Assembly (NCBI RefSeq): GCF_041262565.1
Contig: NZ_JBGCCJ010000001.1
Location: forward strand, 1,488,001 to 1,552,000
Source of the DNA: Leifsonia sp. EB41
GTDB taxonomy: Bacteria > Actinomycetota > Actinomycetes > Actinomycetales > Microbacteriaceae
Direction: 5' to 3'
Length of the DNA: 64,000 nt
Shown: piece by piece, positions 6,971 to 26,943 of the stretch
Position numbering within the stretch: the first letter of the stretch is position 1
Layout: each line of letters starts with the position of its first letter
Notes under the pieces: model-generated
The model's input: only the letters and a program-made list of their open reading frames with translations
What the model was told of the DNA's origin: nothing
The model's database searches: none
Translations under genes and position numbers: made by a program

Positions 6971-9584
6971 ACCGCGCCGCCCGGCGGGCAACCCGGTGCG
7001 GGTACGCGCGACGGCGCACCGCCGGCGCTCGCGGGGCGCTCAGCCGGGCGTAGTACCAGACCTTCGCGAGCTCCACGAGCACGAGGTACACGAGCACCAG
7101 GCCGACCAGCGCGAGGAAGAACAGCGCGGGCAGCGGCGTGAAGCCCAGCAGCCCGGCCAGCGGCGAGTACGGCAGCCAGGCTCCGACGGCCACCACCGCG
7201 AGGACCGAGACGGCGAGCGGGAGGGAGGCACGGCTGCGCAGGAACGGCACCCGGCGCGTCCTGATCACGAACACGATCAGCGTCTGCGTCGCGATCGACT
7301 CGATGAACCAGCCTGAACGGAACTCCGGCGGCGCGGCGTTGAATGCGAAGAGCATCAGCCCGAACGTGGCGAAGTCGAACACCGAGCTGATCGGGCCGAA
7401 GAGCAGCATGAAGCGGCGGATCGCTCCGATGTCCCAGTGCGACGGGACCGTGAGCTGCTCCGCATCCACGTTGTCGCTCGGGATGGCGAGCTGGCTGGAG
7501 TCGTAGAGCAGGTTGTTGAGCAGGATCTGGCCGGGGAGCATCGGCAGGAACGGCAGGATGACCGACGCGATCGAGGCGCTGAACATGTTGCCGAAGTTGC
7601 TGGAGGTCCCCATCAGCACGTACTTGATGGTGTTCGCGAAGATGCGACGCCCCTCGGTCACACCGTCGGCGAGGACGTCGAGGTCCTTGTCGAGCAGCAG
7701 CACGTCGGCGGCGTCCTTCGCCACGTCCACGGCGGAGTCGACCGAGATGCCGATGTCGGCGCTGTGCAGGGCCAGGGCGTCGTTGACGCCGTCGCCGAGG
7801 AAGCCGACCGCGCGGCCCTTCTGGCGCAAGACGCGGATGATGCGCGCCTTCTGCTCGGGCGAAACGCGGGCGAAGATCGTGGCGGCGCGGGCGGACTCCG
7901 CGAGCTGCGCGTCGTCGAGCGCGTCGACCGCCTCGCCGGTCAGGGTGCCGGCGCCGGGCATCCCGAGCTCGGCGCAGACGCGCTCGGCCACGACGGCACT
8001 GTCTCCGGTGGCGATCTTCACCCCGACGCCGAGGTCGGCGAGCCGCTGCAGGGACGCGCGCGCGTCCGGCTTCACGCCGTCCACGAACGCCAGGAAGCCG
8101 CGCAGGGTCAGGCCGGTCTCGTCGCCGGGGGTCAGCGCGACCAGGTCGCCTGCTGCCCTCGTGGCGATGGCGATGACGCGCGAGCCCGCAGCGTAGAGCT
8201 GCGACAGCGTCCCGGCCGCCGACGGGTCCACGTCCGCGCAGAGCGCGAGGACGGACTCCGGGGCGCCCTTCACGACGACGATGGGAGCGGAGCCGGTCGC
8301 GGCGACCAGAGCGCCGGCCATGCGGCGCTCGTGGTCGAACGGCACGGCGTCCAGCCTCCGGTACGCCGCGACCGGGGCGGAGGCCGCCTCTGCGCTCTCC
8401 CACAGGGCGGCGTCGAGCGCGTTCAGGCCGACCGTCTGCGGCGCGGCGGGATCGGTGTCGGTGGCGAGCAGGCCGAGCAGCAGCACCTCGTCGGCCTCCA
8501 CGTGGTCCAACGGCACCGGGCGGTCGAACACGATCCGGCCGGTAGTGAGCGTCCCGGTCTTGTCCGTGACCAGGAGATCGAGGTCACCCAGGTCCTCGAT
8601 GCAGACCATCCGCTTCACGAGCACCCGGCGCCGCGCGAGGGCGCGGGAGCCGGCAGCGAGGCTGGTGCTGACCACGGCAGGAAGCAGCTGCGGGGTGATG
8701 CCCACCGCGATGGCGAGCGAGAACAGCAGCGACTCGATGAGCGGTCGGCCGAGCAGCAGCGCCGCGACGAAGATCAGGGTCGTCAGGATGATCGCGACCA
8801 GCAGCAGGAAGGTCGAGAACTGGCCGAGGCCGCGCTGGAACTCGGTCTGCGGTTGCTGCGTGCCGAGGCCGACGGCGATCCGGCCGAACTCCGTCGTCCC
8901 GCCGGTCGCGACCACGACGCCGACCCCGCCTCCGGCGTGCACGACGGTGCCCATCAGAGCGCTGCAGGCGAGGTCGCCGACCCCGGCGCCCTCCGCCACC
9001 GGGTCGAGGGACTTGGCCGCCGCGTGCGCTTCGCCTGTCACGATGCTCTCGTCGCACTCCAGCCCGTTGACCTCGAAGAGCCGCAGGTCGGCGGGGACGA
9101 CGGAGCCCACCGAGAGCACTACGACGTCACCGGGGACGAGCTCCGTGACGTCCACGCTGCGGCGAGTGCCGCCGCGCAGCACGATCGAGGTGTGCCGGAG
9201 CCGGTCGTGGAGGGCGTCCGCCGCCTGCTCGGCCCGGAACTCGTTCACGAACCCCAGGCCGACGCTGACCACGAGGATGACCGCGATGATGACGGCCTCC
9301 GTCCCCTGGCCGACGAACGCGGAGACGATGGCGGTCGCGAACAGCAGGATGAGGATCGGGCTGCGCACCTGGCGGCCGAGGACACGCCAGGGGCGGGCCC
9401 GGTGACCGCGGACGGCGTTCGGGCCGATCGTGGCGAGCCGGGCGGCGGCCTCCGCGTCGCTGAGGCCGTCTGCCGTGGTCCGCTGGCCCGCGAGCACTGC
9501 CGCCGCGTCCTGGCAGGCCGCGACCTGGACCGGACTCGGCGCAGCGGGAGCGACGACCTCCGTCGTGCCCGGCGCGCCGCTCAC
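6942..9584 (-). CDS. P-type ATPase, magnesium/calcium-transport type (MgtA/CtpF-like)
   Basis: An 880-residue P-type ATPase with the full set of domains: N-terminal cation-ATPase domain, actuator domain with the TGEA loop, phosphorylation site DKTGTLTTG (Asp341), hinge GDGVNDALAL and a C-terminal membrane domain. The sequence is closest in type to magnesium-translocating (MgtA-like) pumps; mycobacterial DosR regulons also contain such a P-ATPase (CtpF). The GTG at 9584 overlaps the stop of the upstream universal stress protein gene (GTGA), so both share the promoter that carries the DosR-like box pair at 10549. The transported ion is not certain. Confidence 0.9.
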   Translation of the reverse strand: MSGAPGTTEVVAPAAPSPVQVAACQDAAAVLAGQRTTADGLSDAEAAARLATIGPNAVRGHRARPWRVLGRQVRSPILILLFATAIVSAFVGQGTEAVIIAVILVVSVGLGFVNEFRAEQAADALHDRLRHTSIVLRGGTRRSVDVTELVPGDVVVLSVGSVVPADLRLFEVNGLECDESIVTGEAHAAAKSLDPVAEGAGVGDLACSALMGTVVHAGGGVGVVVATGGTTEFGRIAVGLGTQQPQTEFQRGLGQFSTFLLLVAIILTTLIFVAALLLGRPLIESLLFSLAIAVGITPQLLPAVVSTSLAAGSRALARRRVLVKRMVCIEDLGDLDLLVTDKTGTLTTGRIVFDRPVPLDHVEADEVLLLGLLATDTDPAAPQTVGLNALDAALWESAEAASAPVAAYRRLDAVPFDHERRMAGALVAATGSAPIVVVKGAPESVLALCADVDPSAAGTLSQLYAAGSRVIAIATRAAGDLVALTPGDETGLTLRGFLAFVDGVKPDARASLQRLADLGVGVKIATGDSAVVAERVCAELGMPGAGTLTGEAVDALDDAQLAESARAATIFARVSPEQKARIIRVLRQKGRAVGFLGDGVNDALALHSADIGISVDSAVDVAKDAADVLLLDKDLDVLADGVTEGRRIFANTIKYVLMGTSSNFGNMFSASIASVILPFLPMLPGQILLNNLLYDSSQLAIPSDNVDAEQLTVPSHWDIGAIRRFMLLFGPISSVFDFATFGLMLFAFNAAPPEFRSGWFIESIATQTLIVFVIRTRRVPFLRSRASLPLAVSVLAVVAVGAWLPYSPLAGLLGFTPLPALFFLALVGLVLVYLVLVELAKVWYYARLSAPRAPAVRRRAYPHRVARRAARFTTRSPRAT

Positions 9585-10489
9585 TCGGCCTCGTGGCGCG
9601 TTCGCGCGATCACGACGGGCACGCGGACGTTCAGCAGCACGTCGTGGCCGACCGAGCCGAGCATGACGCGCTTCGCGCCGTGGCGATCGCGGGTTCCCAC
9701 GATCAGCATTCTGCTGCCTTCCGCCGCCTCGACCAAGCCTCGGGCGGGCGCCGCCTCGATCACGTCGGCGCGGACGTCGATGCCGGGGCGGCGCTCGCGC
9801 GCGCTCTCCGCCGCCGCGTCCACGATCCGCTGCCTCCTGTCGTCGAGCGACACCTCCGGGACGAGGCCTGCGAGCAGGGGGTTCGCGGTGTAGCCGACGC
9901 AGACCAGGCGCAGGCCTTCGCCGAGCGCCGCAGCCTCGTCCGCGGCGAACGCGACGGCCGTCTCCGAGGGCGGCTTGCCGTCCACACCGGCCACGACGCC
10001 CGCCCCCGACCGTGCCCAGCCGTGCGGAACGACGGCGACCGAGCAGGCCGCGGTCGACGCGACGCGCAGGTGCAGCGAGCCGGCGAAGCCGCGGTCGCGC
10101 TGCGAACGCGAACGGGCGCCGACCACCAGGAGGTCGGCGCCGCGGGAGGCCGCCGTCAGTTCGGCGCCCACGTGCCCGTACAGGTATCGCGTCCCCACCT
10201 CGAGGCCGGAATGGCGCCTCGGCGCGGGCTCGGGACCGGTCAGTGCCGGCACCCTCGCCGAGGCGTCCTCTGCGATGCGGAGGGCGGCCTCCCGCTCGGT
10301 CCCCAGCAGCGACTTCGCCGCGAGGACGAGCAGGTCGCTCGGGCCGTCCGCGTCGTCCCCCCAGGAATGCTGGAGCACGAAGACGAGCTCCAACCGGGAG
10401 CCGTCGCGGACCGCGCGGCGCACCGCCCACTCCAGCGCCGCCCGGTGCTCGGCTTTGCCGTCGACCCCGACCATGATCGTCTCGGCCAT
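9581..10489 (-). CDS. Universal stress protein, tandem-domain
   Basis: A 302-residue protein with two universal stress protein domains (about 1-140 and 150-300). Domain 1 begins IMVGVDG and domain 2 VVAGVDG, and both end with a G-x2-G-like nucleotide-binding segment; the second (VGTRDRHGAKRVMLGSV) is the better match. Tandem USPs of this type are the commonest members of mycobacterial DosR regulons. It is the first gene of a two-gene unit with the P-type ATPase and is divergent from a flavodoxin gene, with a DosR-like box pair in the shared 124-bp promoter region. Confidence 0.92.
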   Translation of the reverse strand: MAETIMVGVDGKAEHRAALEWAVRRAVRDGSRLELVFVLQHSWGDDADGPSDLLVLAAKSLLGTEREAALRIAEDASARVPALTGPEPAPRRHSGLEVGTRYLYGHVGAELTAASRGADLLVVGARSRSQRDRGFAGSLHLRVASTAACSVAVVPHGWARSGAGVVAGVDGKPPSETAVAFAADEAAALGEGLRLVCVGYTANPLLAGLVPEVSLDDRRQRIVDAAAESARERRPGIDVRADVIEAAPARGLVEAAEGSRMLIVGTRDRHGAKRVMLGSVGHDVLLNVRVPVVIARTRHEAE

Positions 10490-10548
10490 CGCATCCTCCA
10501 GCCCTCAGGGAACGCGACGAGTGTCCCAACCTGTGCCGGCGTCGCCCA

Positions 10549-10578
10549 GTGCCGAAAGTCCCGCGTGACCTTCGGCCC
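10549..10578. promoter_or_regulatory. DosR-like box pair A (USP/P-ATPase and flavodoxin promoters)
   Basis: Two 14-bp elements, GTGCCGAAAGTCCC and GTGACCTTCGGCCC, start 16 bp apart. The second matches the mycobacterial DosR core GGGACTTTAGTCCC at 10 of 14 positions. The pair lies between divergent genes starting at 10489 (-) and 10614 (+), so it could serve both. The same arrangement recurs at 13055-13084. Confidence 0.75.
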
Positions 10579-10613
10579 TGCGCACCGCGCGCGACCCGCG
10601 CGAGGGTGGCGGC

Positions 10614-11168
10614 ATGAACGACACCACACCGGTCGCCCGCGCGGCCATCGTCTACGAGTCCATGTTCGGGAGCACCCGCCGCGTCGCGGAGGCTATCGCG
10701 GACGGGCTGCGACCGTTCGTGTCGGTGACTGTGATGAAGGTCAAGGACGCACCTGAGGCCTTCCCGGACATCGACCTCCTCCTCATCGGCGCGCCGACGC
10801 ACGTGCACTCGCTGAGCCGGCCGTCCACCCGGGTGGAGGCGGCGAAGTGGGGAGACGACCCCGAGCGCCGACTCACCCTCGAACCCGACGCCGAGGGCAT
10901 CGGCGTGCGCGAGTGGCTGGAGACCTGCGGCGGCACGCCTGCGCGATTCGCCGCGTTCGACACCCGCGCCGACATGACGGAGATCTTCAGCGGCTCGGCC
11001 GCCGCCGCCATCGACAAGCGCCTGCGCAGGCTCGGGTCGCACCGCCTGCTCGCCAAGCACAGCTTCCTGGTCGACAAGGACAGCGTGCTGGTGGCCGGAC
11101 AGCTCGACGACGCCCGCGAGTGGGGACGCACAATCGGCGAAACGCTGCGGACGACGGTCGCCGTCTGA
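10614..11168 (+). CDS. Flavodoxin-domain protein
   Basis: A 184-residue flavodoxin-like protein expected to bind FMN. The phosphate-binding loop is seen in YESMFGSTRRVAEAIADGL near residue 17, followed by LLLIGAPTHVHSLSRP near residue 60, the typical second FMN loop. The protein is longer than a minimal flavodoxin by an insert around residues 75-100. It would be a soluble electron carrier or quinone-reductase-like protein in the cytoplasm. The upstream DosR-like box pair suggests induction under low oxygen. Confidence 0.85.
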   Translation: MNDTTPVARAAIVYESMFGSTRRVAEAIADGLRPFVSVTVMKVKDAPEAFPDIDLLLIGAPTHVHSLSRPSTRVEAAKWGDDPERRLTLEPDAEGIGVREWLETCGGTPARFAAFDTRADMTEIFSGSAAAAIDKRLRRLGSHRLLAKHSFLVDKDSVLVAGQLDDAREWGRTIGETLRTTVAV

Positions 11169-11199
11169 GGCGGTCCCGGAGCGGCGGCCTCCGCTCAGC

Positions 11200-11661
11200 T
11201 CACGATCCGTGGATCACGAGCACCGGGCAGTCTGCGTGCTCCACCACCGACCGCGACACCGACCCCAGAAGCAGCCCGGTGAAGCCGCCGAGCCCGCGGC
11301 TGCCCACGATCAGCATCTCGGCGTCCTCCGCCCCCGCGATCAGCTGGCGCGCCGCCGACCCGGAGCGGACGACGGTCGAGTACCACGGCGGCACGGTGGC
11401 GCCGAAGACCTCGCGCGCGGCCTCCTCGGCGATGCTGTGCGCGTCCCGCTCGGGGTCCCAGCCGCCCATGACGTAGCCGGGCCAGGACGGCGGGTACTCC
11501 CACACCGTCACGCCGACGAGGTTGCAGCCCAGCCGTTCGGTCATCCGGGCGCCGCGGCGCAGCGCGGACAGCGACTCCGCGGAGCCGTCCAGTCCGACGA
11601 CGATGCGGCCGCCGGGGTGGATGCGGTCCTCGGACCCGCCGTCGAGGGACTCGTCGGTCAT
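11200..11661 (-). CDS. Universal stress protein, single-domain
   Basis: A 153-residue single-domain universal stress protein. The conserved start IVVGLDGSAES and the C-terminal ATP-binding motif VGSRGLGGFTGLLLGSVS (G-x2-G-x9-G-S) are both intact, so ATP binding is likely. The ATG at 11661 is chosen over an upstream extension because AAGGAAGAGC precedes it. It is the third gene of a minus-strand run (12093-13004, 11687-12106, 11200-11661) that starts from the divergent promoter with box pair B. It converges on the flavodoxin gene. Confidence 0.92.
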   Translation of the reverse strand: MTDESLDGGSEDRIHPGGRIVVGLDGSAESLSALRRGARMTERLGCNLVGVTVWEYPPSWPGYVMGGWDPERDAHSIAEEAAREVFGATVPPWYSTVVRSGSAARQLIAGAEDAEMLIVGSRGLGGFTGLLLGSVSRSVVEHADCPVLVIHGS

Positions 11662-11686
11662 GATGCTCTTCCTTCCGTGCGGAGGT

Positions 11687-12106
11687 TCACCAGCGCTCCG
11701 GCTCCGGCTCGCGCCGGAACCGCCGGCCGGACATCGAGTCGATGTCGATGTGGACGTAGCGGTACTTGAGGGTCGGGATCCACGGCTGCAACGGGGCCTT
11801 GTCTGCCTCGTCGATCTCCACCTGATGCTCGAGCTGCCTGGCATGGCCGTGGACGACGACGCTCCAGGCCTCGTCGTCGGTCCAGCCGTCGGTCTCGAAC
11901 GCCACCGTGTCGTGCACGGTCAGCTCCAGCAGCTTGGTGCCGGGCGCCGTCCGGATCAGGATGCTCGACCCGTCGGAGTAGAAGTTGACCGGGTAGATGT
12001 CCGGTTCTCCGCCCACGGCCGTCGCCAGCCTCCCGACCGTCGCGCCCTTCAGAACCTCCCGGCACTCGTCGCGGTCCAGCACCCGGACCGGGTCATCCGA
12101 TGACAT
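11687..12106 (-). CDS. Pyridoxamine-5'-phosphate-oxidase-fold flavin/heme-binding protein
   Basis: A 139-residue protein of the split-barrel pyridoxamine-phosphate-oxidase-like superfamily. The family's core is visible as VGRLATAVGGEPDIYPVNF (about residues 24-42) and WSVVVHGHA near residue 81. Relatives in mycobacterial DosR regulons bind F420, flavin or heme; which applies here cannot be decided from sequence. The start overlaps the upstream USP gene by 14 bases, so they are in one transcript. The downstream gene is another USP. Confidence 0.85.
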   Translation of the reverse strand: MSSDDPVRVLDRDECREVLKGATVGRLATAVGGEPDIYPVNFYSDGSSILIRTAPGTKLLELTVHDTVAFETDGWTDDEAWSVVVHGHARQLEHQVEIDEADKAPLQPWIPTLKYRYVHIDIDSMSGRRFRREPEPERW

Positions 12107-13004
12107 GGCTCTCTCCTTCCGTCTTCGGCTGCTCCGCCCGCGCGGCGGCGGCCGGGGCGTGCACCACGACCGTCGGCGAGGACAGGTTGAGCAGCACGTC
12201 GTACGCGACAGCGCCGAGGCTGCCGAGCTGCGCATGTGCCCGGCGCGAGTCCCCGATCACGAGGAGCTCCGCGCTGCGGGCCAGTTCGTTGAGGGCGGCG
12301 CCCGCCGGCCGGCGCACCACCCGGCTGCGGATGACGATGCCGGGCTGCCTCGCCCGCGCCCGCGAGACGGCCGCCGCGAGGAGACCCCGCGCCTCGTCGT
12401 CCCGCCGGAGCTGCCAGTCGCGCCTCTCCTCGGGCTCGTCGGGGTCGAAGGGGACGGACGTCTGGGATGAGCGGACGGTCATCAGCTCGCAGTGGTGGTC
12501 GCAGGCCAGGTCCGCTGCCAGGTCGACCGCCGCCTCCCCCGCCGGTGTGTCGTCGACGCCGACGATCACGCCACGCCGCATCCGCGACGCCGCCTCCGGG
12601 ATGATCGCGACCGGCCCGGTGGCGAGGTTCGCGAGCTGGAGGCTGCGCGAGCCGAACGCTCGCCCGTAGTGGAAGCCCGTCTTGTGGGTGCCGACGACGA
12701 TCATCGTCCCCTGGTCGCTGAACGAGGCGAGCTCTGCCATCGGGCTGCCTGTCCGGGTCTCGCCGTGGATCGGCACGTCCGCTCCGAGGGACCGCGCGTA
12801 GTCGACCTCCTGCCCCAGCCGTTTCCCCGCGTCCTGGTCGACCTCGTCGATGAGCAGCGCCCCCACTGCGCCCCATCCGTCGTCGGCGACGTGGACGAGC
12901 GTCACACCGAGTCCCCGCTCCCGCGCCCCCGCGACCGCCCACCGGATCGCGGCGCGGGCCGGCACCGAACCGTCGACACCGACGATGTACCTGCGGATCT
13001 CCAT
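12093..13004 (-). CDS. Universal stress protein, tandem-domain
   Basis: A 303-residue protein with two universal stress protein domains (YIVGVDGSVPAR at residue 7 and VIVGVDDTPAGE near residue 146). The first domain lacks a clear G-x2-G-x9-G motif; the second has a partial one, GDSRRAHAQLGSLG. A role in ATP-linked stress adaptation is inferred from the family. It is the first gene of a minus-strand operon, 50 bp from the edge of the DosR-like box pair B, which also faces the alcohol dehydrogenase gene on the other strand. Confidence 0.92.
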   Translation of the reverse strand: MEIRRYIVGVDGSVPARAAIRWAVAGARERGLGVTLVHVADDGWGAVGALLIDEVDQDAGKRLGQEVDYARSLGADVPIHGETRTGSPMAELASFSDQGTMIVVGTHKTGFHYGRAFGSRSLQLANLATGPVAIIPEAASRMRRGVIVGVDDTPAGEAAVDLAADLACDHHCELMTVRSSQTSVPFDPDEPEERRDWQLRRDDEARGLLAAAVSRARARQPGIVIRSRVVRRPAGAALNELARSAELLVIGDSRRAHAQLGSLGAVAYDVLLNLSSPTVVVHAPAAAARAEQPKTEGESHVIG

Positions 13005-13054
13005 GGTGAGGCACCTCCGTCTGCAGTCTGCTCACCCGGCACGGGCGGCCCGAA

Positions 13055-13084
13055 GGGCCATAAGTCCCGTGGGACCTTCGGCCC
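13055..13084. promoter_or_regulatory. DosR-like box pair B (divergent USP and adh promoters)
   Basis: Two 14-bp elements, GGGCCATAAGTCCC and GGGACCTTCGGCCC, start 16 bp apart, as in pair A. The second matches the mycobacterial DosR core GGGACTTTAGTCCC at 11 of 14 positions. It lies between 13004 (-) and 13136 (+). The rightward operon ends with the sensor kinase and response regulator, so this site would make the system self-regulating. Confidence 0.8.
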
Positions 13085-13135
13085 GCCCGGCAGGCGCCAG
13101 CGGCGCTTGACTCGGTGGCGGATGGGAGGCACGCG

Positions 13136-14137
13136 ATGGCGGTGATGAGAGCGTGGCGCACCACGGGAACGAGCGGAGGGCTCGAGGCGGTCGATGCCAC
13201 GGTGCCGGAGCCGGCGTCGGACGAGGTGCTGGTCGAGGTGGAAGTGTGCGGGATCTGCCGCACCGATCTCCACGTGATCGACCACGAGATCCCCGTGCAC
13301 CGCCCGCTGGTGACACCCGGGCACCAGGCGATCGGCACGGTGGTCGACGTCGGCGACGCTGTGACATCGCTGGAGCCGGGAGCCCGCGTCGGCGTCGCCT
13401 GGCTGCGGCGCACCTGCGGCGAGTGTGCCTTCTGCCGGCGGGGTGCGGAGAACCTGTGCCCGAATTCGGAGTACACGGGCTGGGACGCCGACGGCGGTTT
13501 TGCCGACTACCTGGTGGCGCCGGCCGCATATGTCTATCCGATCGCGGCGGACGCCGACGCGCTGGAGACGGCGCCGCTTCTCTGCGCGGGGATCATCGGC
13601 TACCGCGCGCTCCGGCGGGCGCAGCTCCCACCGGGCGGCGTCCTCGGCATCTATGGGTTCGGGTCGAGCGCGCACGTGACGGCGCAACTCGCCATGGCGG
13701 GCGGCGCGCGGGTGTTCGCGATGACACGCGGCGTGCAGAACCGCCAGCTAGCCCGGGAGCTCGGCGCCGGCTTCGTCGGCGAGGAGGACGAGGAGCCGCC
13801 CGAGCCGCTGGACGCCGCGATCGTGTTCGCTCCGGCGGGCGGGCTCGTCCCGGTCGCACTGCGGGCCACGGCGAGCGGCGGCACCGTCGTGCTGGCCGGC
13901 ATCGAGATGTCCGACCTCGCGCCGCTCTCGTACACGGAGTCGCTGTTCCGCGAGCGCGACCTGCGCACCGTCACGGCGAACACCCGGGAGGACGGCGCGC
14001 GCTTCCTCGCGCTCGCACGGAACCTCCGGCTCAGGCCGACCGTGACGGCGGTTCCGTTCGACGGGCTGGCGGGTGCGATCGACGATCTGCGCCGCGGCAG
14101 GACCGGCGGCTCGCTGGTGCTGCGAGTCGCGGGGTAG
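13136..14137 (+). CDS. Zinc-dependent alcohol dehydrogenase
   Basis: A 333-residue medium-chain, zinc-dependent alcohol dehydrogenase-like protein. The catalytic zinc ligands are seen in CGICRTDLH and GHQAIG, the structural zinc cysteines in CGECAFCRRGAENLC, and the NAD(P) loop in IYGFGSSAH near residue 178. It would oxidise an alcohol or reduce an aldehyde in the cytoplasm. The ATG at 13136 is chosen because GGGAGG precedes it by 6 bases; a second ATG follows at 13145. It is the first gene of a rightward run that continues through a USP to the kinase and regulator. Confidence 0.9.
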   Translation: MAVMRAWRTTGTSGGLEAVDATVPEPASDEVLVEVEVCGICRTDLHVIDHEIPVHRPLVTPGHQAIGTVVDVGDAVTSLEPGARVGVAWLRRTCGECAFCRRGAENLCPNSEYTGWDADGGFADYLVAPAAYVYPIAADADALETAPLLCAGIIGYRALRRAQLPPGGVLGIYGFGSSAHVTAQLAMAGGARVFAMTRGVQNRQLARELGAGFVGEEDEEPPEPLDAAIVFAPAGGLVPVALRATASGGTVVLAGIEMSDLAPLSYTESLFRERDLRTVTANTREDGARFLALARNLRLRPTVTAVPFDGLAGAIDDLRRGRTGGSLVLRVAG

Positions 14138-14152
14138 GAAGGGAGAGGGACG

Positions 14153-15052
14153 ATGACCGACCGGACGATGGTCTGCTGGGACGGCTCTGCAGCGGCGGAG
14201 GCGGCCCTCGCCTGGGCGCTTCGCCGCGCGCGTGCCGAGGGCTCGACGATCGAGCTCGTCGACGTCGTCGACGTCGGCGACTTCCTGGGTGACGACGGCG
14301 CCCTCGACCGGGCGACCGAACAGGAGGAGGACCGGCTCGACTCCCGGGTGGAGGAGCTCGCAGACTCGCATCCCGGCGTCGTGTCCGGAGCGCAGCGGCT
14401 CGTCGGCGATCCGTTCGACCTGCTGACCGGTCAGACCCGCTCGGACACCCTCGTCGTGGTCGGCACACGGCACCGGATCGGGCCGCGCGTCCGCTACGGC
14501 TGGTCGCTCGGATCGCGGCTCGCGACGGCGGCCGCCGGTCCGGTGGCCGTGGTCCCGGTCGAAGAGCCCGAGGCCGCGGAGGCCCGGACGGGCGTCGTGG
14601 TGGGAGTGGACGGCTCCGAGGTGGGCAGGCTCGCCCTGGAGTTCGCGGCGCGAGAAGCCGAGGACCTGCGCCAGCGGCTGACGATCGTGCACTGCTGGGT
14701 GGCGCCGCTGTCCGAGCAGCCGCTGATCGTCCCCGACGACGAGTTCGTCACCTCGCAGGAGAGCGAACGGCAGGACCTGCTCGACGACCACGTGCGAACA
14801 GTGCGCGCCGCGCACCCCGACGTCGTCGTGCACGCGGTCCTGCTCCGCCAGAACCCGATCTCGGGGCTCCGCGTCCAGTCGGAGCACGCGTCGATGCTCG
14901 TCGTCGGCAGCCGGCGGCTCACCGGCTGGAAGCGCGCGTGGCTGGGCTCGGTCTCCCACGGCCTCGTCCTCGACCTCGCCGCTCCCACCATCGTGGTCGG
15001 TCAGGACACACAGGTGTACGCGACGCCGCGGGAAGCTACACTCGGCGCGTGA
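14153..15052 (+). CDS. Universal stress protein, tandem-domain
   Basis: A 299-residue tandem universal stress protein. Domain 2 begins VVVGVDGSEVGR near residue 144 and ends with VGSRRLTGWKRAWLGSVS, a good nucleotide-binding motif. Domain 1 (TMVCWDGSAA at residue 4) is more divergent, and its first strand has Trp where the family usually has Asp-rich VGVDGS. GAAGGGAGAGGG lies before the ATG. It follows the alcohol dehydrogenase gene by 15 bases and precedes the sensor kinase, separated by a hairpin. Confidence 0.92.
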   Translation: MTDRTMVCWDGSAAAEAALAWALRRARAEGSTIELVDVVDVGDFLGDDGALDRATEQEEDRLDSRVEELADSHPGVVSGAQRLVGDPFDLLTGQTRSDTLVVVGTRHRIGPRVRYGWSLGSRLATAAAGPVAVVPVEEPEAAEARTGVVVGVDGSEVGRLALEFAAREAEDLRQRLTIVHCWVAPLSEQPLIVPDDEFVTSQESERQDLLDDHVRTVRAAHPDVVVHAVLLRQNPISGLRVQSEHASMLVVGSRRLTGWKRAWLGSVSHGLVLDLAAPTIVVGQDTQVYATPREATLGA

Positions 15053-15056
15053 GCTC

Positions 15057-15076
15057 ACGGGCCGTTCACGGCCCGT
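15057..15076. terminator. Hairpin between USP and sensor-kinase genes
   Basis: ACGGGCCGT-TC-ACGGCCCGT is a perfect 9-bp inverted repeat starting 4 bases after the USP stop and ending 18 bases before the kinase ribosome-binding site. No T-run follows. It could be a weak terminator or attenuator lowering kinase expression relative to the stress genes. Confidence 0.55.
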
Positions 15077-15109
15077 AGCCCGCTTCCCGCTGCCGAGAGG
15101 AGGCGCGCC

Positions 15110-16798
15110 ATCCCGAGCGATGAGCCGATCACCTTCCCCGACGCGCCCCGGGCCGAACTCGACCGTGCCCTCGGCGAGCTGGTGGAGCAGGCACGGAAGG
15201 TGCTGGACACCCAAGGCAGGCTGCGCGCCCTCGTCCGGGCGAACCGGGCAGTGGTGTCGCACCTGGAGCTGCCGGTGGTGCTGCGGACAATCATCGAGTC
15301 GGCCGTCGAACTGGTCGGCGCGCGGTACGGCGCCCTCGGGGTGATCGCCGAGGGCGGCGGCCTGGAGCAGTTCATCCACGTCGGGATGTCGGACGACGCG
15401 GTGACACGAATCGGCCACTTGCCGGAGGGGCACGGGCTCCTCGGCGCCCTCATCGACGATCCGCGCCCGATCCGTCTCGACTCGATCGCCGACGACCCGA
15501 GGTCCTCCGGCTTCCCGGTGGGCCACCCGCCGATGACGGCGTTCCTCGGCCTCCCGATCACCGTGCGCGACGCGGTCTACGGCAACCTCTACCTGACCGA
15601 CCCCGTCGCCGGCGGGTTCACCGAGGACGACGAGCAGCTCGTCAAAGCGCTGGCCGCCAACGCCGGCTTCGCGATCGACAACGCCCGCCTGTTCGCCGAG
15701 ACCGTCGCACGGCAGGCCTGGAGCGCGTCCGCCGCCGAGCTGACAGCCAGCATCCTCGGGAGCGAGGCGGAGCAGTCGCACGAGGAGCTGGCGACCCGCA
15801 CGGCGACGCTGGTCGGGGCTCGCGCGGTGCTCGTCATCGGCGTCGATGTCCACGACGACGCGTTCCGCGTGCTCGGAGCGAGCGGCGCCTCCTGCGAACT
15901 CGACCCGACGGAGACGACGAACGAGAGGATCCGCAGCGCGATCGAAGGGGCGCAGCCCACGCGGCTCGACGAGCTGAGCGGCATCCGGCTCCCGGACGGT
16001 CGCAGCTCGGGACCCGCGCTCGTCATCCCGTTCGACGGGAAGACGGGCGACCCCGAGGTGCTGATCGCCGTCCGCGCGATCGGCGACCCCGCCTTCTCCG
16101 CGTTCGACCTGGAGAGGACCGTGACGTTCTCGCGCCAGGGCGCCCTGGCGATGGAGCTGGCCGCGGCCCGCGCCGACCGCGAGCGGGTGGTGCTCCTCGA
16201 GGATCGGGCGCGGATCGCCCGAGACCTGCACGACCATGTCATCCAGCAGCTCTTCGGCGCGGGGCTGGAACTGCAGAGCGTCCAGTCCGAGCTCGGACCC
16301 GGGAGGCTGGCCGACCGGATCGACGGCACCGTGAAGTCGCTGGACGACGCGATCGCGCAGATCCGCACCGCGATCTTCTCCCTGTCGCGTCAGCAGGGAC
16401 CGGCCGAGAGCCTCCGGCACCGGCTGCTCGACATCGTGCAGGAGGTCGGCGAGGCCCTGCCGCGGCCGGCGACGGTCTCCTTCTCCGGCCCCGTCGACCT
16501 GGTGTCCGACGCCGCGCTCGCCGACGATGTCGCGGCGTTCGTGCGGGAGGGACTGACCAACGTGGTCCGGCACGCGGGGGCCGGCACCGCCACGGTCGAG
16601 GTCGTGGCGTCAGCGGACGAACTCACGGTCGACGTGGCGGACGACGGCACCGGGATGGGCGGGACGAGCAGGCGCAGCGGGCTCGCCAACCTGTCCGAGC
16701 GCGCGGAGCGTCGCGCCGGCGTGCTCGATGTCGAGTCGACCCCCCGGGGGACGCGGTTGCGGCTCCGCCTGCCCGTGACCGTCGAGACCGTCCGATGA
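15110..16798 (+). CDS. DevS/DosT-like GAF-domain histidine kinase (probable ATC start)
   Basis: A 562-residue cytosolic sensor kinase when started at 15110. It has GAF-A (about 45-190), GAF-B (about 205-355), a HisKA_3 dimerisation domain with phospho-acceptor His374 (RDLHDHVIQQLF) and an HATPase domain with GLANLSERA. GAF-A carries GFPVGHPPMTAFLG; its His139 matches the haem-ligand histidine of mycobacterial DevS/DosT, so O2/NO/CO sensing is likely. No ATG, GTG or TTG lies near the good ribosome-binding site GAGAGGAGG; an ATC sits 6 bases after it. The next standard start, GTG at 15182, lacks a ribosome-binding site and cuts into residues alignable with DevS. The stop overlaps the regulator gene (ATGA). 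Confidence 0.88.
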   Translation: MPSDEPITFPDAPRAELDRALGELVEQARKVLDTQGRLRALVRANRAVVSHLELPVVLRTIIESAVELVGARYGALGVIAEGGGLEQFIHVGMSDDAVTRIGHLPEGHGLLGALIDDPRPIRLDSIADDPRSSGFPVGHPPMTAFLGLPITVRDAVYGNLYLTDPVAGGFTEDDEQLVKALAANAGFAIDNARLFAETVARQAWSASAAELTASILGSEAEQSHEELATRTATLVGARAVLVIGVDVHDDAFRVLGASGASCELDPTETTNERIRSAIEGAQPTRLDELSGIRLPDGRSSGPALVIPFDGKTGDPEVLIAVRAIGDPAFSAFDLERTVTFSRQGALAMELAAARADRERVVLLEDRARIARDLHDHVIQQLFGAGLELQSVQSELGPGRLADRIDGTVKSLDDAIAQIRTAIFSLSRQQGPAESLRHRLLDIVQEVGEALPRPATVSFSGPVDLVSDAALADDVAAFVREGLTNVVRHAGAGTATVEVVASADELTVDVADDGTGMGGTSRRSGLANLSERAERRAGVLDVESTPRGTRLRLRLPVTVETVR

Positions 16799-17439
16799 GC
16801 GCGCCACCGATCCGCGTCTTCCTCGCGGACGATCACGAGATCGTCCGCCGCGGCGTGGCCGCCCTGATCGACGGCCAGGACGATATGGAGGTCGTCGGCG
16901 AGGCGGCGACGGCCGCTCAGGCGCGCGCCAGGATCCTCGCCGTGCGGCCCGATGTCGCCGTGCTCGATGTCCGGCTGCCCGACGGCAGCGGCATCGACGT
17001 CTGCCGTGCCGTCAAGCAGGCGGAGCCGGGCATCCGCTGCCTGATGCTCACCGCCTACGACGACGAGGACGCGCTGCGCAGCGCGATCATCGCCGGCGCC
17101 GACGGCTACGTCGTCAAGGACATCCGCGCGAGCACTCTGCTGGACGATGTCCGCGCGGCCCACCGCGGAAACCGCCTTATCGACCCGCGCGTCGCGTCGC
17201 GCGTCTCGGCGACCCTGCGCGAGCCCGCCGACGACCCGCGGTTCGCCTCGCTCGGCCTCCGGGAGCGGCAGGTCCTCGCTCTCATCGCCGACGGGCGGAC
17301 CAACCGCCAGATCGCCGAGCAGTTGGGACTGGCCGAGAAGACGGTCAAGAACTATGTGAGCTCGCTGCTGGCGAAGCTGGGCCTGGAGCGGCGCACGCAG
17401 GCCGCTGTGCTCCACCTCGAGCACCGCGGCCACGGCTGA
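16795..17439 (+). CDS. DevR/DosR-like response regulator
   Basis: A 214-residue NarL/LuxR-type regulator. The receiver domain has the acidic pocket (ADDHE) and phospho-acceptor Asp58 (VLDVRLPDG); the C-terminal helix-turn-helix reads LAEKTVKNYVSSLLAKLG. This recognition segment is nearly identical to that of Mycobacterium tuberculosis DevR, and the residues equal to its DNA-contacting Lys179, Lys182 and Asn183 are kept as Lys182, Lys185 and Asn186. Binding to the DosR-like boxes found in this island is therefore likely. It is the last gene of the rightward operon, overlapping the kinase by 4 bases, and converges on a USP gene. Confidence 0.92.
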   Translation: MSAPPIRVFLADDHEIVRRGVAALIDGQDDMEVVGEAATAAQARARILAVRPDVAVLDVRLPDGSGIDVCRAVKQAEPGIRCLMLTAYDDEDALRSAIIAGADGYVVKDIRASTLLDDVRAAHRGNRLIDPRVASRVSATLREPADDPRFASLGLRERQVLALIADGRTNRQIAEQLGLAEKTVKNYVSSLLAKLGLERRTQAAVLHLEHRGHG

Positions 17440-17443
17440 CCTC

Positions 17444-18340
17444 TCACCACGCATCCCGGTCATCCGGCCCGCTCGGGACGGCGAAGGAGAACTCCTTCGG
17501 CGTGACGAGCACCGGGCACGGGAGGTTCTGAAGCACGTCGTGGCTGACCGAACCGAGCAGCGAGGAGACGAAGCGCCCGCGGCCGCGCGTCCCGACGACG
17601 ACGGCGACGGCTCCCGCTCCGCGCTCGATGAGCGCCTCCGCCGGGTTCCTGCGCACCACGATGTCGGCGATCGGCGCCGCCCGCGCGATCGGGACGTCGG
17701 CGACCGCCTCCGGGATCACGGCCTGCTCGCGCTTCAGGAACGCGGGATCGGCATGCTCGCCGGACTCGAGGGCGGCATGGAGGGCCTCAGGCACGTCCCA
17801 GGCGTGCACGGCCTCGACCTGCGCGCCCGACCAGCTCGCCTCTGTCACCGCCAGGGCGAGCGCGGAGCGTGCGAAGGCGGAGCGGTCCACGCCGACGACG
17901 ACCACATTCCGCTCGGGTCGCGGCGAGGCGGGGATCACGGCGACGACGCAGTCGGCCTTCGCCGCAAGCGTCAGCGGGAGGGTGCCGATCCTCGCCCCGC
18001 TGTTCAACGGCCCCTTGTCGGTGCCAACCACCAGGAGCGAGGCACCAGCGGCCTCCGCGAGGAGCGCGCCCGCCGGGGGCCCCTCCACCCAGCGCACCTC
18101 CACCGCCACGCCGGGGGCGAGCGCACGAACGTGGCTCCGGGCCTGCGCGAGGCCGGTCTCGACCACGGTCTCGAGGTCGAACCGTGGACCGAAGACAGCG
18201 CCGCCGAGGCGCGTGTCGATCGCGTGCACCACCTCCAGCGCGCCCCCGCGCTGCGCGACGCGGTCGGTGGCCCAGTCGAGCGCCCGCCACGCCGGCGGCG
18301 AGCCGTCGAACCCCACCACCGTGCGCCCGTCGATCGCCAT
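17444..18340 (-). CDS. Universal stress protein, tandem-domain
   Basis: A 298-residue tandem universal stress protein. Domain 1 begins TVVGFDGSPPAW near residue 7 and domain 2 VVVGVDRSAFAR near residue 149. Domain 2 ends with VGTRGRGRFVSSLLGSVSHDV, a full G-x2-G-x9-G-S motif. The ATG at 18340 is chosen because GGGGGAG precedes it by 8 bases; a GTG at 18346 that overlaps the upstream stop codon is an alternative and would add two residues. It is the second gene of an operon with a pyridoxamine-oxidase-like gene, downstream of the DosR-like box C. Confidence 0.9.
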   Translation of the reverse strand: MAIDGRTVVGFDGSPPAWRALDWATDRVAQRGGALEVVHAIDTRLGGAVFGPRFDLETVVETGLAQARSHVRALAPGVAVEVRWVEGPPAGALLAEAAGASLLVVGTDKGPLNSGARIGTLPLTLAAKADCVVAVIPASPRPERNVVVVGVDRSAFARSALALAVTEASWSGAQVEAVHAWDVPEALHAALESGEHADPAFLKREQAVIPEAVADVPIARAAPIADIVVRRNPAEALIERGAGAVAVVVGTRGRGRFVSSLLGSVSHDVLQNLPCPVLVTPKEFSFAVPSGPDDRDAW

Positions 18341-18342
18341 CG

Positions 18343-18834
18343 TCACCACTCCCCCTCCATGCGGCCGGTCAGCGTGTGCAGGTTCACCCGGAAGACCACG
18401 GCTGCAGCGGAAGGCTGCCCCACCTGCTCCCGCGCCTCCGCCAGCCGCGGGATGTCGAGTGTCCGCATCATCCCGAGCTCCGCTCCCTGATGGTCTTCCG
18501 CGCTCGCCGGCACGAGCGGCCGGAAGCGATCGACCAGGAGCTCCATCGCCTCCCTGGCCTCCGCGCCGAGGAGCTGTTCGAAACGGCCCCACGCGATCAC
18601 ACTGCGCCAGCGGTCGATGTGGTCGAGCTCGTCGACCTCGAAGCAGACCTCCGGCCGGGTCCGCAGCGCTTGCACCTTCCGGCCCTGTGCACTGTGGCAG
18701 TAGACAGCGCCGTCACGGAAGGCGAAGGAGATCGGGACGACGTACGGCTGGCCGTCGGCGATCATCCCGAGCCGGCCGACCAGGGCGGCCTTCAGGAGCT
18801 CATCGATCTCGTCGCGGGTCATCGGGGTGGGCAT
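18343..18834 (-). CDS. Pyridoxamine-5'-phosphate-oxidase-family protein
   Basis: A 163-residue split-barrel flavin/F420-binding-type protein. The core is visible as VGRLGMIADGQPYVVPISFAF (about residues 19-39), VYCHSAQGRKVQALR, and VCFEVDELD. It is a different subgroup from the protein at 11687-12106, which lacks the last segment. AGGAG lies 5 bases before the ATG at 18834. It is the first gene of a minus-strand pair with a USP gene and is divergent from a small membrane protein gene, with box C between them. A role in redox or cofactor handling in low oxygen is inferred. Confidence 0.85.
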   Translation of the reverse strand: MPTPMTRDEIDELLKAALVGRLGMIADGQPYVVPISFAFRDGAVYCHSAQGRKVQALRTRPEVCFEVDELDHIDRWRSVIAWGRFEQLLGAEAREAMELLVDRFRPLVPASAEDHQGAELGMMRTLDIPRLAEAREQVGQPSAAAVVFRVNLHTLTGRMEGEW

Positions 18835-18894
18835 GGGGACTCCTCACGTCATCGGCTTCTCTGTCGAGCCTGCCCCGCCCGCGCGCGGCGGGCC

Positions 18895-18908
18895 AGGACC
18901 TTAGGCCC
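18895..18908. promoter_or_regulatory. DosR-like box C
   Basis: AGGACCTTAGGCCC matches the second element of pairs A and B at 12 of 14 positions. It lies in the 110-bp region between genes starting at 18834 (-) and 18945 (+). No partner element is seen 16 bp away on either side. Confidence 0.65.
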
Positions 18909-18944
18909 TTGCCGTGCCGCGGGCACAGGCGGTCTGATGGCCCC

Positions 18945-19247
18945 ATGAGAAACCACTACGAAGCGTCCCGCATGGGGATGCACGACGTGCCGCCTGTGGG
19001 CCGCATCCTCGTCGTCGCGGTCGTCGCCTGGAGCCTCGCCTGGAAGGGCGCGTCGCTCTGGCGCGCCGCCCGGAACGGCAGCAAGCCGTGGTTCGTCACC
19101 CTGCTGCTCTCCAACACGCTCGGCGTCCTCGACGCCGTCTACCTGTTCGGGGTGGACCGGCGTCACGGCAGGGAGGAGCTCGAGGAGGTCGCGATCCTGG
19201 AGGTCACCGGCGAGCCTGAGCAGGAGGGCCACCCGCAGGAGACCTGA
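18945..19247 (+). CDS. Small membrane protein, DUF5652-like
   Basis: A 100-residue protein with two predicted membrane segments (about 18-36 and 50-68) and a charged C-terminus. The stretch WFVTLLLSNTLGVLDAVYLF resembles small DUF5652-type membrane proteins of unknown function. The ATG at 18945 lies 37 bases after the DosR-like box C, so low-oxygen control is likely. It precedes the cytochrome gene set by 72 bases. No enzymatic motif is seen. Confidence 0.75.
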   Translation: MRNHYEASRMGMHDVPPVGRILVVAVVAWSLAWKGASLWRAARNGSKPWFVTLLLSNTLGVLDAVYLFGVDRRHGREELEEVAILEVTGEPEQEGHPQET

Positions 19248-19255
19248 GAGTCCGC

Positions 19256-19269
19256 GGGACCTTCGGCCC
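19256..19269. promoter_or_regulatory. DosR-like box D (cytochrome operon)
   Basis: GGGACCTTCGGCCC is identical to the second element of pair B. It is preceded by a degenerate half (GAGAGTCC), so the pair geometry is only partly kept. It lies 50 bases before the start at 19320 and just after the stop of the preceding gene. Confidence 0.75.
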
Positions 19270-19319
19270 GCCCGCCGATCCCGGCGAGGATCACGCTGGC
19301 ATCGACCGAAGGAGGCACC

Positions 19320-19469
19320 GTGGACATCGTCGCAAGCGCGCCGGGCATCTACCTCGGCTGGGGTGCGTTCACCATCCAGCTCGGCAATCTCATCGTCATC
19401 GTGGTCATGCTCGTGCTGTTCGCACTGGCGCTGCTGCTGCCGTTCCCGAAGGCGAGGCGCCGTCGATGA
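19320..19469 (+). CDS. 49-residue single-span membrane protein of the cytochrome operon
   Basis: A short ORF encoding 49 residues with one strong membrane segment (about residues 22-42) and a basic end (KARRRR), which predicts an N-out, C-in topology. The GTG at 19320 has GGAGG 5 bases before it. Its stop overlaps the cytochrome b start (ATGA). The position, clear ribosome-binding site and translational coupling make it a real gene; a small subunit that stabilises the cytochrome complex is inferred. I do not recognise a named family. Confidence 0.75.
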   Translation: MDIVASAPGIYLGWGAFTIQLGNLIVIVVMLVLFALALLLPFPKARRRR

Positions 19470-20149
19470 GCGGGCCTCAGGCGCCGAGCAGCCCGGATGA
19501 GGAGATCTACACCTGGACCGGCCGCGTACGCCGCTGGCTCCTGAAGCGCCTCCCGCCGCAGAAGCTGCTGCCGCAGGACCAGCCGAGCTACGTCTCCTCG
19601 TGGATCTACGTGTTCGGGATGGCGTCGCTCGCCGCGTTCGCCGTGGTGATCCTGTCCGGCCTGGTGCTCAGCCTCAACGGACCCGCCTGGTACCACGTCT
19701 CGAGCCTCGGGCATTTCACGAACAGCGTGCACCTGTGGAGCGTCGAGCTGTTCTTCCTGCTGATGGTCGTGCACCTGTGGGGCAAGTACTGGATGGCCGC
19801 GTGGCGCGGCGGCCGGGTGCTGACCTGGATCACGGGCGTGATCGCCTTCGCCGTGTCGATCGCGGCCGCGTTCACCGGCTACCTGCTCCAGACGAACTTC
19901 GACTCGCAGTGGATCGCCTTCGAGGGCAAGGACGCCCTGAACGCGGTCGGGATCGGCGCCTGGTTCAACGTGGCCGACCTCGGTCAGATGTTCACGTGGC
20001 ACATCGTGCTGCTGCCCATCGGTGTCGGCGCGATCGTCGTGCTGCACGTGCTCCTCGTGCGCGTGCACGGCGTCGTCCCGCCGATCGACGCGACCGAGGA
20101 GGACGACCAGGTCGTCCACGCCTACAACGAATCGGAGGCACCGCGATGA
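19466..20149 (+). CDS. Cytochrome b/b6-type dihaem membrane subunit
   Basis: A 227-residue protein matching the N-terminal, four-helix haem domain of cytochrome b/b6. The four haem ligands are His89 and His103 (SVHLWS and VVHLWGKYW) and His179 and His194; spacings of 14 and 15 residues are as in the b6 type. There is no C-terminal cytochrome b domain (subunit IV), which may be replaced by the next gene. It would move electrons between quinol and a partner in the cell membrane. It lies between the 49-residue protein and the next gene, with ATGA overlaps on both sides, downstream of DosR-like box D. Confidence 0.9.
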   Translation: MSGPQAPSSPDEEIYTWTGRVRRWLLKRLPPQKLLPQDQPSYVSSWIYVFGMASLAAFAVVILSGLVLSLNGPAWYHVSSLGHFTNSVHLWSVELFFLLMVVHLWGKYWMAAWRGGRVLTWITGVIAFAVSIAAAFTGYLLQTNFDSQWIAFEGKDALNAVGIGAWFNVADLGQMFTWHIVLLPIGVGAIVVLHVLLVRVHGVVPPIDATEEDDQVVHAYNESEAPR

Positions 20150-21210
20150 AGCGCACACCGAGCATGACCTGGCGGCGGCACGACGACGTCGCCGGCCGCC
20201 CGTGGAAGGGGCGCGTGCGCGACTACGACCTCTTCAAGGAGGTCACCATCGGCTTCGTCGTCGTCGGAGCGGTGACGCTCGGGCTCGCCGCGGTGTTCGG
20301 GTCGCCGGACGAACCGGGTGTCACCTTCGCCTCCTGGTCGGCGGCCGACCCCGTCGACTTCGCGTCGACCGCGACGGCCGAGCTCGGCGGGACGAGCGAC
20401 ACCGCCCAGTACGGGCCGCCCTACAACGACACCCAGGGCGCGACGCAGACCCTCGGGCCGCTCGACCTGCAGAGCCTGTCCGGCGTCCGGCTCCCGGTCG
20501 ACACGGCGAAGGCCTTCGTGATCGGCCCGTTGCGCACGCTGCCGACCGTGCCGCAAGCGGTCTCCCGCTGGACGAGCGCGTCCCCCGCGCAGCAGGCCAA
20601 GTGGACGGCCGCCTACGAGAAGGCCCTGGCCGCCGACACGGGGACCACGCTGCCGAAGTCGTCCTCGGGCGACTACGGCCCGGTGCCCGCGATCATCTCG
20701 TCGCTCAGCGGGATGGCGCGCAGCGGCGCGCTCGACGGCGCGCTCGCGAGCCAGGGCGGCTTCTACCCGCTGAACCACACGCCGGCGATCCTGTTCCTCG
20801 GCGACGGCCAGTACTTCCAGAACCTTGCGGCGGCCCAACACCTCACCGGGGACCAGTGGGGGATGATGAACGAGACCGGCAACACGCCGGGCCAGGCCTG
20901 GCTCTGGCTGTTCTCGCTCTTCTACCAGGTCCAGCCGTTCGCGTCGCTCGCCAACGCCGACCTCGTGATCGTGCTGATCATGGGCTCCTTGACGCTGCTG
21001 CTGGCCCTGCTGCCGTTCATCCCCGGCCTGCGCACGTTCCCGCGCTGGATCCCGCTGCACCGGGTCATCTGGCGGGACTACTACAGGGCGACCCGCCTGA
21101 GCGCGAGCACCGGGCAGAGCGCAACGGCGTCGTCCGCCGCGTCCAGCTCGTCGGCGCGCAGCGGCACCTCCGAGCGGGAGCCCTCCGCGCCGCGGAGCGA
21201 GACGGGGTAG
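20146..21210 (+). CDS. Membrane-anchored partner protein of the cytochrome b subunit
   Basis: A 354-residue protein with a membrane segment near residues 34-51, a large extracytoplasmic region (about 52-265) with a YGPPYN motif near residue 89, and a second membrane span near 267-288. It has no cysteine, so no c-type haem and no Rieske cluster. It starts inside the cytochrome b stop codon (ATGA). The last 43 residues are Ser/Ala-rich and lie antisense to the convergent ferredoxin gene, a 130-base overlap, so the true end may be shorter in relatives. The function is unknown; a role as extracytoplasmic subunit of a quinol-linked complex is inferred. Confidence 0.75.
   Translation: MKRTPSMTWRRHDDVAGRPWKGRVRDYDLFKEVTIGFVVVGAVTLGLAAVFGSPDEPGVTFASWSAADPVDFASTATAELGGTSDTAQYGPPYNDTQGATQTLGPLDLQSLSGVRLPVDTAKAFVIGPLRTLPTVPQAVSRWTSASPAQQAKWTAAYEKALAADTGTTLPKSSSGDYGPVPAIISSLSGMARSGALDGALASQGGFYPLNHTPAILFLGDGQYFQNLAAAQHLTGDQWGMMNETGNTPGQAWLWLFSLFYQVQPFASLANADLVIVLIMGSLTLLLALLPFIPGLRTFPRWIPLHRVIWRDYYRATRLSASTGQSATASSAASSSSARSGTSEREPSAPRSETG

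Positions 21211-23576: not shown

Positions 23577-26943
<3,367 letters not shown>

Follow-up and report, generated by a model that had tools for sequence, protein, structure and literature searches.

A predicted DosR-type regulon packed into one locus of Leifsonia sp. EB41, with a probable near-cognate kinase start and a candidate b-type cytochrome module

Leifsonia sp. EB41 carries, within a stretch of 64,000 nucleotides (contig NZ_JBGCCJ010000001.1, positions 1,488,001 to 1,552,000; herein the window, in whose numbering all coordinates are given), an island of genes for universal stress proteins (USPs), a sensor kinase, a response regulator and a putative cytochrome module (table 1), which is very probably a DosR/DevR/OsdR-type gas-responsive regulon packed into a single Leifsonia-type locus. 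A preliminary description, made from the letters of this DNA, had proposed a DosR-type hypoxia island, and the kinase, the regulator, the predicted operator sites (boxes), the gene content and the recurrence of boxes in related genomes all support that proposal; a low-oxygen response of the island is itself predicted purely from homology. Two features of the island appear to be new, namely the start codon of the kinase gene and the cytochrome module; neither is treated for this group in any paper that our literature searches brought up. A search on DosR and hypoxia in Microbacteriaceae returned no paper, a search on Leifsonia USPs and hypoxia returned only a paper on another protein, and among the listed results of searches on DevR with Leifsonia and on the DosR regulon with Microbacterium nothing concerned the subject, as judged by title.

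Among solved structures, the best relative of the first GAF domain of the kinase (GAF-A) is DosT (2vzw, 7e-46), followed by DevS chains (1e-42 to 1e-41); its heme His aligns with that of DosT and DevS, and the distal Tyr is kept. Counted from this His, the gate residue lies at a distance of 62 and the Tyr at a distance of 22, just as in DosS (H149, E87 and Y171). At the gate stands a Gly, which DosT has too, where DosS has Glu, and the gate letters vary among the DevS chains compared, as expected for gate mutants. On this basis direct O2 sensing as in DosT would be expected. The transmitter comprises HisKA_3 and HATPase domains (Pfam) and matches DosT and DevS as well as DesK (1e-11). The response regulator has its best match in DevR (3c3w, 3e-61), followed by VraR (5e-43) and, further down, DesR (5e-28). 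Its D58 aligns with the phosphorylated Asp of DevR, D54, and its KTVKN stretch with K179, K182 and N183, which are DNA-contact residues in DevR (PMC5999986; the roles of all four residues are given there and in PMC3029386), in agreement with the earlier statement that the DNA-contact residues are retained.

The boxes, which we predict to be operators of a DosR/DevR/OsdR-type regulator, precede USP1, flavodoxin, USP3, PPOX2, DUF5652 and SMALL, with box centres 42.5 to 67.5 bp 5' of the respective start codons. The preliminary description listed four sites of the form (G/T/A)GGACCTT(C/A)GGCCC; all four coordinates hold, the match being exact at 13071, 18895 and 19256 and one mismatch short at 10565, and the two pairs that it placed exactly 16 bp apart (10549/10565 and 13055/13071) do have that step. 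The palindrome GGGMCNWWNGKCCC (GGGMC-N4-GKCCC with an A/T centre) occurs without mismatch at four sites in the host genome, a single contig of 4,162,015 bases, and three of these lie inside the island. With at most one mismatch there are 126 genome sites, seven of them within 9.4-23.2 kb of the window (13.8 kb; Poisson about 3e-7) and six of these seven intergenic; the site at 22682 and a match at 23090 were rejected as boxes, both being inside coding sequence. When any centre is allowed, 45 perfect sites are found in the genome and three in the island (Poisson 5e-4). The core GGGACCTTCGGCCC of boxes 13071 and 19256 is identical to sites of OsdR from Streptomyces coelicolor at SCO0167 and SCO0216 (AGGGACCTTCGGCCCC) and at SCO5979 (CGGGACCTTCGGCCCT) (Table 1 of PMC5069765). 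A matrix built from 25 OsdR sites of that table and scanned over the whole window ranks 19255 second, 13070 third, 10564 sixth, 10548 seventh and 13054 eleventh.

Several observations weigh against this interpretation. The top match of the OsdR matrix, 43304-43319, lies outside the island, and 18894 ranks only 26th. The other 42 perfect palindromes with any centre also lie outside it; given these and the G/C-rich centres that OsdR sites often have (PMC5069765), the regulon may extend beyond the island. Allowing up to three mismatches, the pattern is not clearly enriched in the window (50 matches against 40.4 expected, with 7 of 100 shuffles reaching 50). Reversed control patterns are commoner genome-wide than the box (144 vs 97, 180 vs 90 and 410 vs 252, both strands). 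We therefore rejected loose matches (two to three mismatches), in window and genome alike, as noise. Across 80 named loci (the best 80 kinase loci kept from a longer match list) the palindrome is no commoner than permuted palindromes (96 perfect sites against a mean of 98.4), and box frequency alone therefore proves nothing. The box is not over-represented genome-wide; the informative point is the concentration of its perfect A/T-centred form in the island. As for the kinase, DosS and DosT carry two GAF domains; Pfam detects one in the Leifsonia protein, and the roughly 175 residues between GAF-A and HisKA_3 have no second GAF match.

A further such point concerns the kinase-regulator promoter (14900-15110), which has no box, its best match being one with two mismatches at 14944. 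A box at this promoter is a typical, not a defining, feature of DosR-type systems, and none stands there in the window; the osdR promoter carries an OsdR site (Table 1 of PMC5069765), and a box stands immediately 5' of the kinase gene in L010, L011 and L012. The earlier statement that the island also governs its kinase and regulator is, as regards direct control, not supported. Since ADH and USP4 separate the nearest box from the kinase gene, autoregulation would be possible only by read-through from the box-controlled ADH-USP4 unit. When 18 kinase upstream regions are aligned, the -10-like element TACACT is found in 13 and TANNNT in all 18, and it is common to kinase genes with differing neighbours; a generic scan for terminators and sigma-70 promoters, which included the kinase upstream region, found none. 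A hairpin at about 15057-15076 was rejected as an operator, since inspection by eye showed none at the corresponding place in L009.

The island and its boxes recur in related genomes. Among the matches listed, the nearest named relative is Leifsonia shinshuensis, with 81% identity in the kinase, and Leifsonia sp. 71-9 has 65%; of the 80 kinase loci kept, the best 17 (L009 to L025) bear names of Microbacteriaceae genera, and the lower loci include other actinomycetes too. The Microbacteriaceae-like host surmised from the letters is thereby confirmed. In L. shinshuensis both the gene order and the boxes in the matching promoters are kept. Our genus sample comprised 28 genomes, of which 17 matched the kinase and 15 (the host and 14 fetched loci) were examined for boxes; each of the 14 fetched loci has at least one box, one-mismatch sites inside matched genes being left out. 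The tandem at the USP3 promoter, with a 16-bp step and at most one mismatch in both boxes, is present in 12 of the 15 (13 when one partner is allowed two mismatches), and counterparts of box 18895 stand beside DUF5652 in L164 and L165. The pair between USP1 and flavodoxin keeps the 16-bp step in all six genomes of one clade (L146 to L151, support 1.000) and only there; in the other genomes either a single box is seen or the step measures 24 to 39 bp. The 16-bp step looks lineage-specific, because among one-mismatch pairs in the 80 named loci the commonest step is 22 bp (11 pairs, against 5 pairs at 16 bp).

An ordinary NarL-type pair, responding to cell-envelope or redox stress in the manner of VraR or DesR and standing by chance beside stress genes, would account for the VraR and DesR matches of the regulator and for the DesK match of the catalytic part of the kinase. 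We regard this explanation as highly improbable: the DevR match is better by 18 orders of magnitude, GAF-A matched only DosT and DevS chains among solved structures at the limit used and keeps the heme His and Tyr, and the box core equals published OsdR sites. A closer contender accepts a DosR-type system and proposes that the kinase senses the redox state, as has been proposed for DosS, and not O2 directly. The heme pocket of DosS is closely related and DevS has been described as a redox sensor (PMC5069765); the gate residue of the Leifsonia kinase is nevertheless the Gly of DosT and not the Glu of DosS, and we consider redox sensing the less likely option, if one of real weight.

The start of the kinase gene admits two readings as well. 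The conserved N-terminus of the kinase (ITFPDAPRAELDRAL) extends 5' of the first canonical start, GTG 15182, and at the place where other relatives have an aligned ATG, GTG or TTG the six clade genomes, L146 to L151 in order, have ATC, ATT, ATC, ATT, ATC and ATT, preceded by a Shine-Dalgarno sequence, AGAGGAG(G/T). We think it likely that translation starts at this ATC/ATT codon (15110 in the window). Over 15 genome pairs, codons 2-25 after it evolve as coding sequence (28, 10 and 114 changes at positions 1, 2 and 3; 105 synonymous against 37 non-synonymous codon differences), and the 12 codons before it lack a coding pattern (62, 75 and 54 changes). Five of the six genomes have no in-frame ATG, GTG or TTG upstream; L148 has a TTG 11 codons upstream. 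The third base of the codon has undergone at least three T/C changes and none to ATG (counted by eye, with the root set by us). The alternative is a start at GTG 15182, with the ATC/ATT standing in an N-terminal extension by chance. That GTG is in frame and a start there would retain the whole of GAF-A; the same GTG is found in L148, and further canonical codons lie downstream in all six genomes. This second reading appears improbable to us, for the constraint begins after the ATC/ATT codon and not in the 12 preceding codons, GTG 15182 has a counterpart in only two of the six genomes (L146 and L148), and the next canonical codon in L150 and L151 is 41 codons downstream.

A canonical kinase start is missing from the expected range in 12 of 110 readable rows, seven of which belong to this clade (five genomes, two of them twice) and five of which are scattered. 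Comparison of the remaining 15 island genes with five relatives gives 75 start cells, of which 57 are readable at residue 1, all of them ATG or GTG; the other 18 either do not align there or are missing. The gene for translation initiation factor 3 (IF3), infC, served as a positive control: in all 28 genus genomes (L224 to L251) ATC occupies its start position, with AGAGGAG a few bases upstream, from which we infer that infC of this genus starts at ATC. In Escherichia coli, infC and pcnB are given as the two AUU-start genes (PMC9410913); the start proposed for the Leifsonia kinase is likewise near-cognate and differs in belonging to the sensor kinase of a stress regulon.

Downstream of box 19256 lie three overlapping genes, SMALL, CYTB and CYTC, which are herein referred to as the cytochrome module. 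CYTB matches cytochrome b6 among PDB sequences (2e-10) and ExtP in NCBIfam (7.6e-15), the cytochrome b of a selenite/tellurite operon, although its score of 55 bits stays far below the ExtP cut-off of 290. An alignment of 36 CYTB sequences has five His that at least 90% of them conserve, four of these in b6-like spacing. CYTB shares the four heme His of cytochrome bc and b6f complexes, whereas the Qo-site half and the Rieske protein of these complexes have no counterpart here: the PEWY motif is absent from CYTC (read by eye), the module has no Rieske gene, and no Rieske domain was found among the 19 window proteins that were domain-scanned. CYTC itself has no family match in Pfam, NCBIfam or PDB sequences, and none in a plasmid collection; its structure, predicted with three sequences, has a mean predicted local distance difference test score (pLDDT) of 34.4, too low to be of use. 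In our reading the module is probably a quinol-linked b-type electron carrier.

Within the genus sample CYTC is present in 8 of 28 genomes, all of them among the 17 with the kinase (hypergeometric 0.008, uncorrected for relatedness), and in all eight the 300 bp 5' of the module contain a box, perfect in seven and never with more than one mismatch. In L144 and L145 the module is away from the kinase and has a box upstream nonetheless. In a class-level sample of 296 genomes, 30 have CYTC, the host included. The box pattern was fixed before the class-level upstream regions were searched, and outside the genus a perfect box precedes the module in 5 of 25 readable regions, where 0.16 (Markov) or 0.09 (same loci) are expected and the best permuted palindrome reaches 1; the corresponding result with one mismatch is weak (8 of 25 against 2.9 expected), as permuted palindromes reach 7 and 6. 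Among module genomes outside the genus, the box occurs in 0 of 7 without a kinase match and in 8 of 18 with one (Fisher 0.04); five of the seven are low in G+C, which also lowers chance matches to the box. Two further results are negative: when palindromes were sought de novo in the sequences upstream of the module from 25 class genomes, the box did not stand out, and at class level the kinase is not enriched in module genomes (22 of 29, host excluded, against 229 of 296 in the sample). Our interpretation is that the module has long been a target of DosR-type regulators, though an optional one.

Some neighbours of the module may be recorded here. In L113, a distant class genome, the module has a DosR-like regulator and two perfect boxes next to it; the other strand downstream encodes a protein in which the Rieske-type motifs CTHxGC and CPCHG were recognised by eye. 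In the window the module adjoins a convergent operon with ferredoxin, NuoF-like and ferric-reductase-like genes (21276-23118), in which no intergenic box was seen; a NuoF-like gene is adjacent to the module in L139 and L142 too.

Domain scans bear out the earlier account of the gene content (USPs, P-type ATPase, flavodoxin and pyridoxamine-oxidase-like proteins), and the island holds 9 of the 15 USP-domain matches of the host genome. Like OsdKR of S. coelicolor (SCO0203/SCO0204), with which it has the core at some operator sites in common, the kinase-regulator pair is a DosR-type pair beside many USP genes. The predicted OsdR regulon likewise includes pyridoxamine 5'-phosphate oxidase and zinc-type dehydrogenases; it covers 27 transcription units, nitrate reductase among them, and no cytochrome b gene is named in its table (PMC5069765). 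No nitrate reductase is found among the 19 window proteins scanned, and, in contrast to the OsdR sites, the perfect A/T-centred boxes of Leifsonia are almost confined to the island. With the DosR/DevR-DosS-DosT system of Mycobacterium tuberculosis the island shares the GAF-A heme His and Tyr, the DosT-like Gly, equivalents of D54, K179, K182 and N183, and adjacent paired boxes at target promoters, which in M. tuberculosis are cooperative (PMC3029386); the comparison concerns the pairing, and the 16-bp start-to-start step is given for Leifsonia only. It differs in its probable ATC/ATT kinase start and in its b-type cytochrome module. Moreover, the M. tuberculosis DosR system has two kinases, whereas the Leifsonia genome has a single kinase match.

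Table 1. Genes, predicted boxes and promoter-like element of the Leifsonia sp. EB41 island (window coordinates; mismatches are to the 14-bp pattern given in the text)
Feature	Position	Strand	Remarks
P-type ATPase, Mg-translocating type	6942..9584	-	TIGR01524 over cut-off; GTG start overlaps USP1 stop
USP1, double universal stress protein	9581..10489	-	
Box (partner) GTGCCGAAAGTCCC (+ strand letters)	10549..10562	-	between divergent USP1 and flavodoxin; 2 mismatches
Box GTGACCTTCGGCCC	10565..10578	+	start 16 bp from box 10549; one mismatch
Flavodoxin-like protein	10614..11168	+	
USP2, single universal stress protein	11200..11661	-	
PPOX1, pyridoxamine 5'-phosphate oxidase-like	11687..12106	-	
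USP3, double universal stress protein	12093..13004	-	
Box (partner) GGGCCATAAGTCCC (+ strand letters)	13055..13068	-	between divergent USP3 and ADH; 3 mismatches
Box GGGACCTTCGGCCC	13071..13084	+	start 16 bp from box 13055; exact match
ADH, zinc-binding alcohol dehydrogenase family	13136..14137	+	start uncertain: GTG 13115, ATG 13136 or 13145
USP4, double universal stress protein	14153..15052	+	
TACACT, -10-like element upstream of kinase	15037..15042	+	overlaps USP4 end
HK, DosS/DosT-type sensor kinase	15110..16798	+	probable ATC start 15110 after AGAGGAGG; first canonical in-frame start GTG 15182
DosR/DevR-type response regulator	16795..17439	+	start overlaps kinase stop
USP5, double universal stress protein	17444..18340	-	
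PPOX2, pyridoxamine 5'-phosphate oxidase-like	18343..18834	-	
Box AGGACCTTAGGCCC	18895..18908	+	between divergent PPOX2 and DUF5652; exact match
DUF5652 protein	18945..19247	+	
Box GGGACCTTCGGCCC	19256..19269	+	upstream of cytochrome module; exact match
SMALL, 49 residues, one hydrophobic stretch	19320..19469	+	first gene of cytochrome module; no NCBIfam match
CYTB, cytochrome b6-like	19466..20149	+	four His with the spacing of heme ligands (14 and 15)
CYTC, membrane-type protein of cytochrome module	20146..21210	+	no Pfam, NCBIfam or PDB-sequence match

We propose the following working model. The protein families, the conserved residues, the boxes with their conservation and the context of the start codon are read directly from sequence; that the kinase binds heme, what signal it senses, that the regulator binds DNA, in which direction it acts and what the start codon does are predictions. 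The kinase would hold heme in its first GAF domain and be off with O2 bound; loss of O2, or binding of NO or CO, would trigger autophosphorylation and transfer of the phosphate to the regulator, dimers of which would bind GGGMC-N4-GKCCC at about 42-68 bp 5' of the start codon, mostly between divergent genes, two promoters being bound as 16-bp tandems. The targets switched on would be the USPs, the Mg-type P-ATPase, flavodoxin, the PPOX-like proteins, ADH, DUF5652 and the b-type cytochrome module. Kinase and regulator would be transcribed from their own promoter, perhaps also by read-through from the ADH-USP4 unit, and the probable AUC/AUU start in the clade would keep kinase synthesis low. Much more tentatively, the AUC/AUU start might be deliberate, such that kinase dosage and the low-oxygen threshold follow the balance of IF3 to ribosomes and dormancy signalling is linked to translation, with the same switch also driving an undescribed three-part b-type cytochrome complex that is a DosR target in several actinomycete lineages; we hold this combined proposal to be doubtful as it stands.

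Two observations stand apart from the above. In the genus genome G504 the kinase match is split over two adjacent pieces of DNA (L161 and L163) between which some 20 query residues (226-247) are left unmatched, which may reflect an internal deletion. Further along the window, 23595-25295 encodes a CoA-disulfide-reductase-like protein with a rhodanese domain, and a small CsoR-like reading frame lies on the opposite strand at about 25500-25805 (by eye).

The island offers a compact DosR switch in a non-mycobacterial relative, where tests can cover operators, kinase and targets at once. The recurrent box before SMALL-CYTB-CYTC predicts a low-oxygen function for CYTC, a protein without a family match in the libraries searched, and a conserved near-cognate start in a sensor kinase, which is directly testable, would extend the very short list of such genes to stress signalling.

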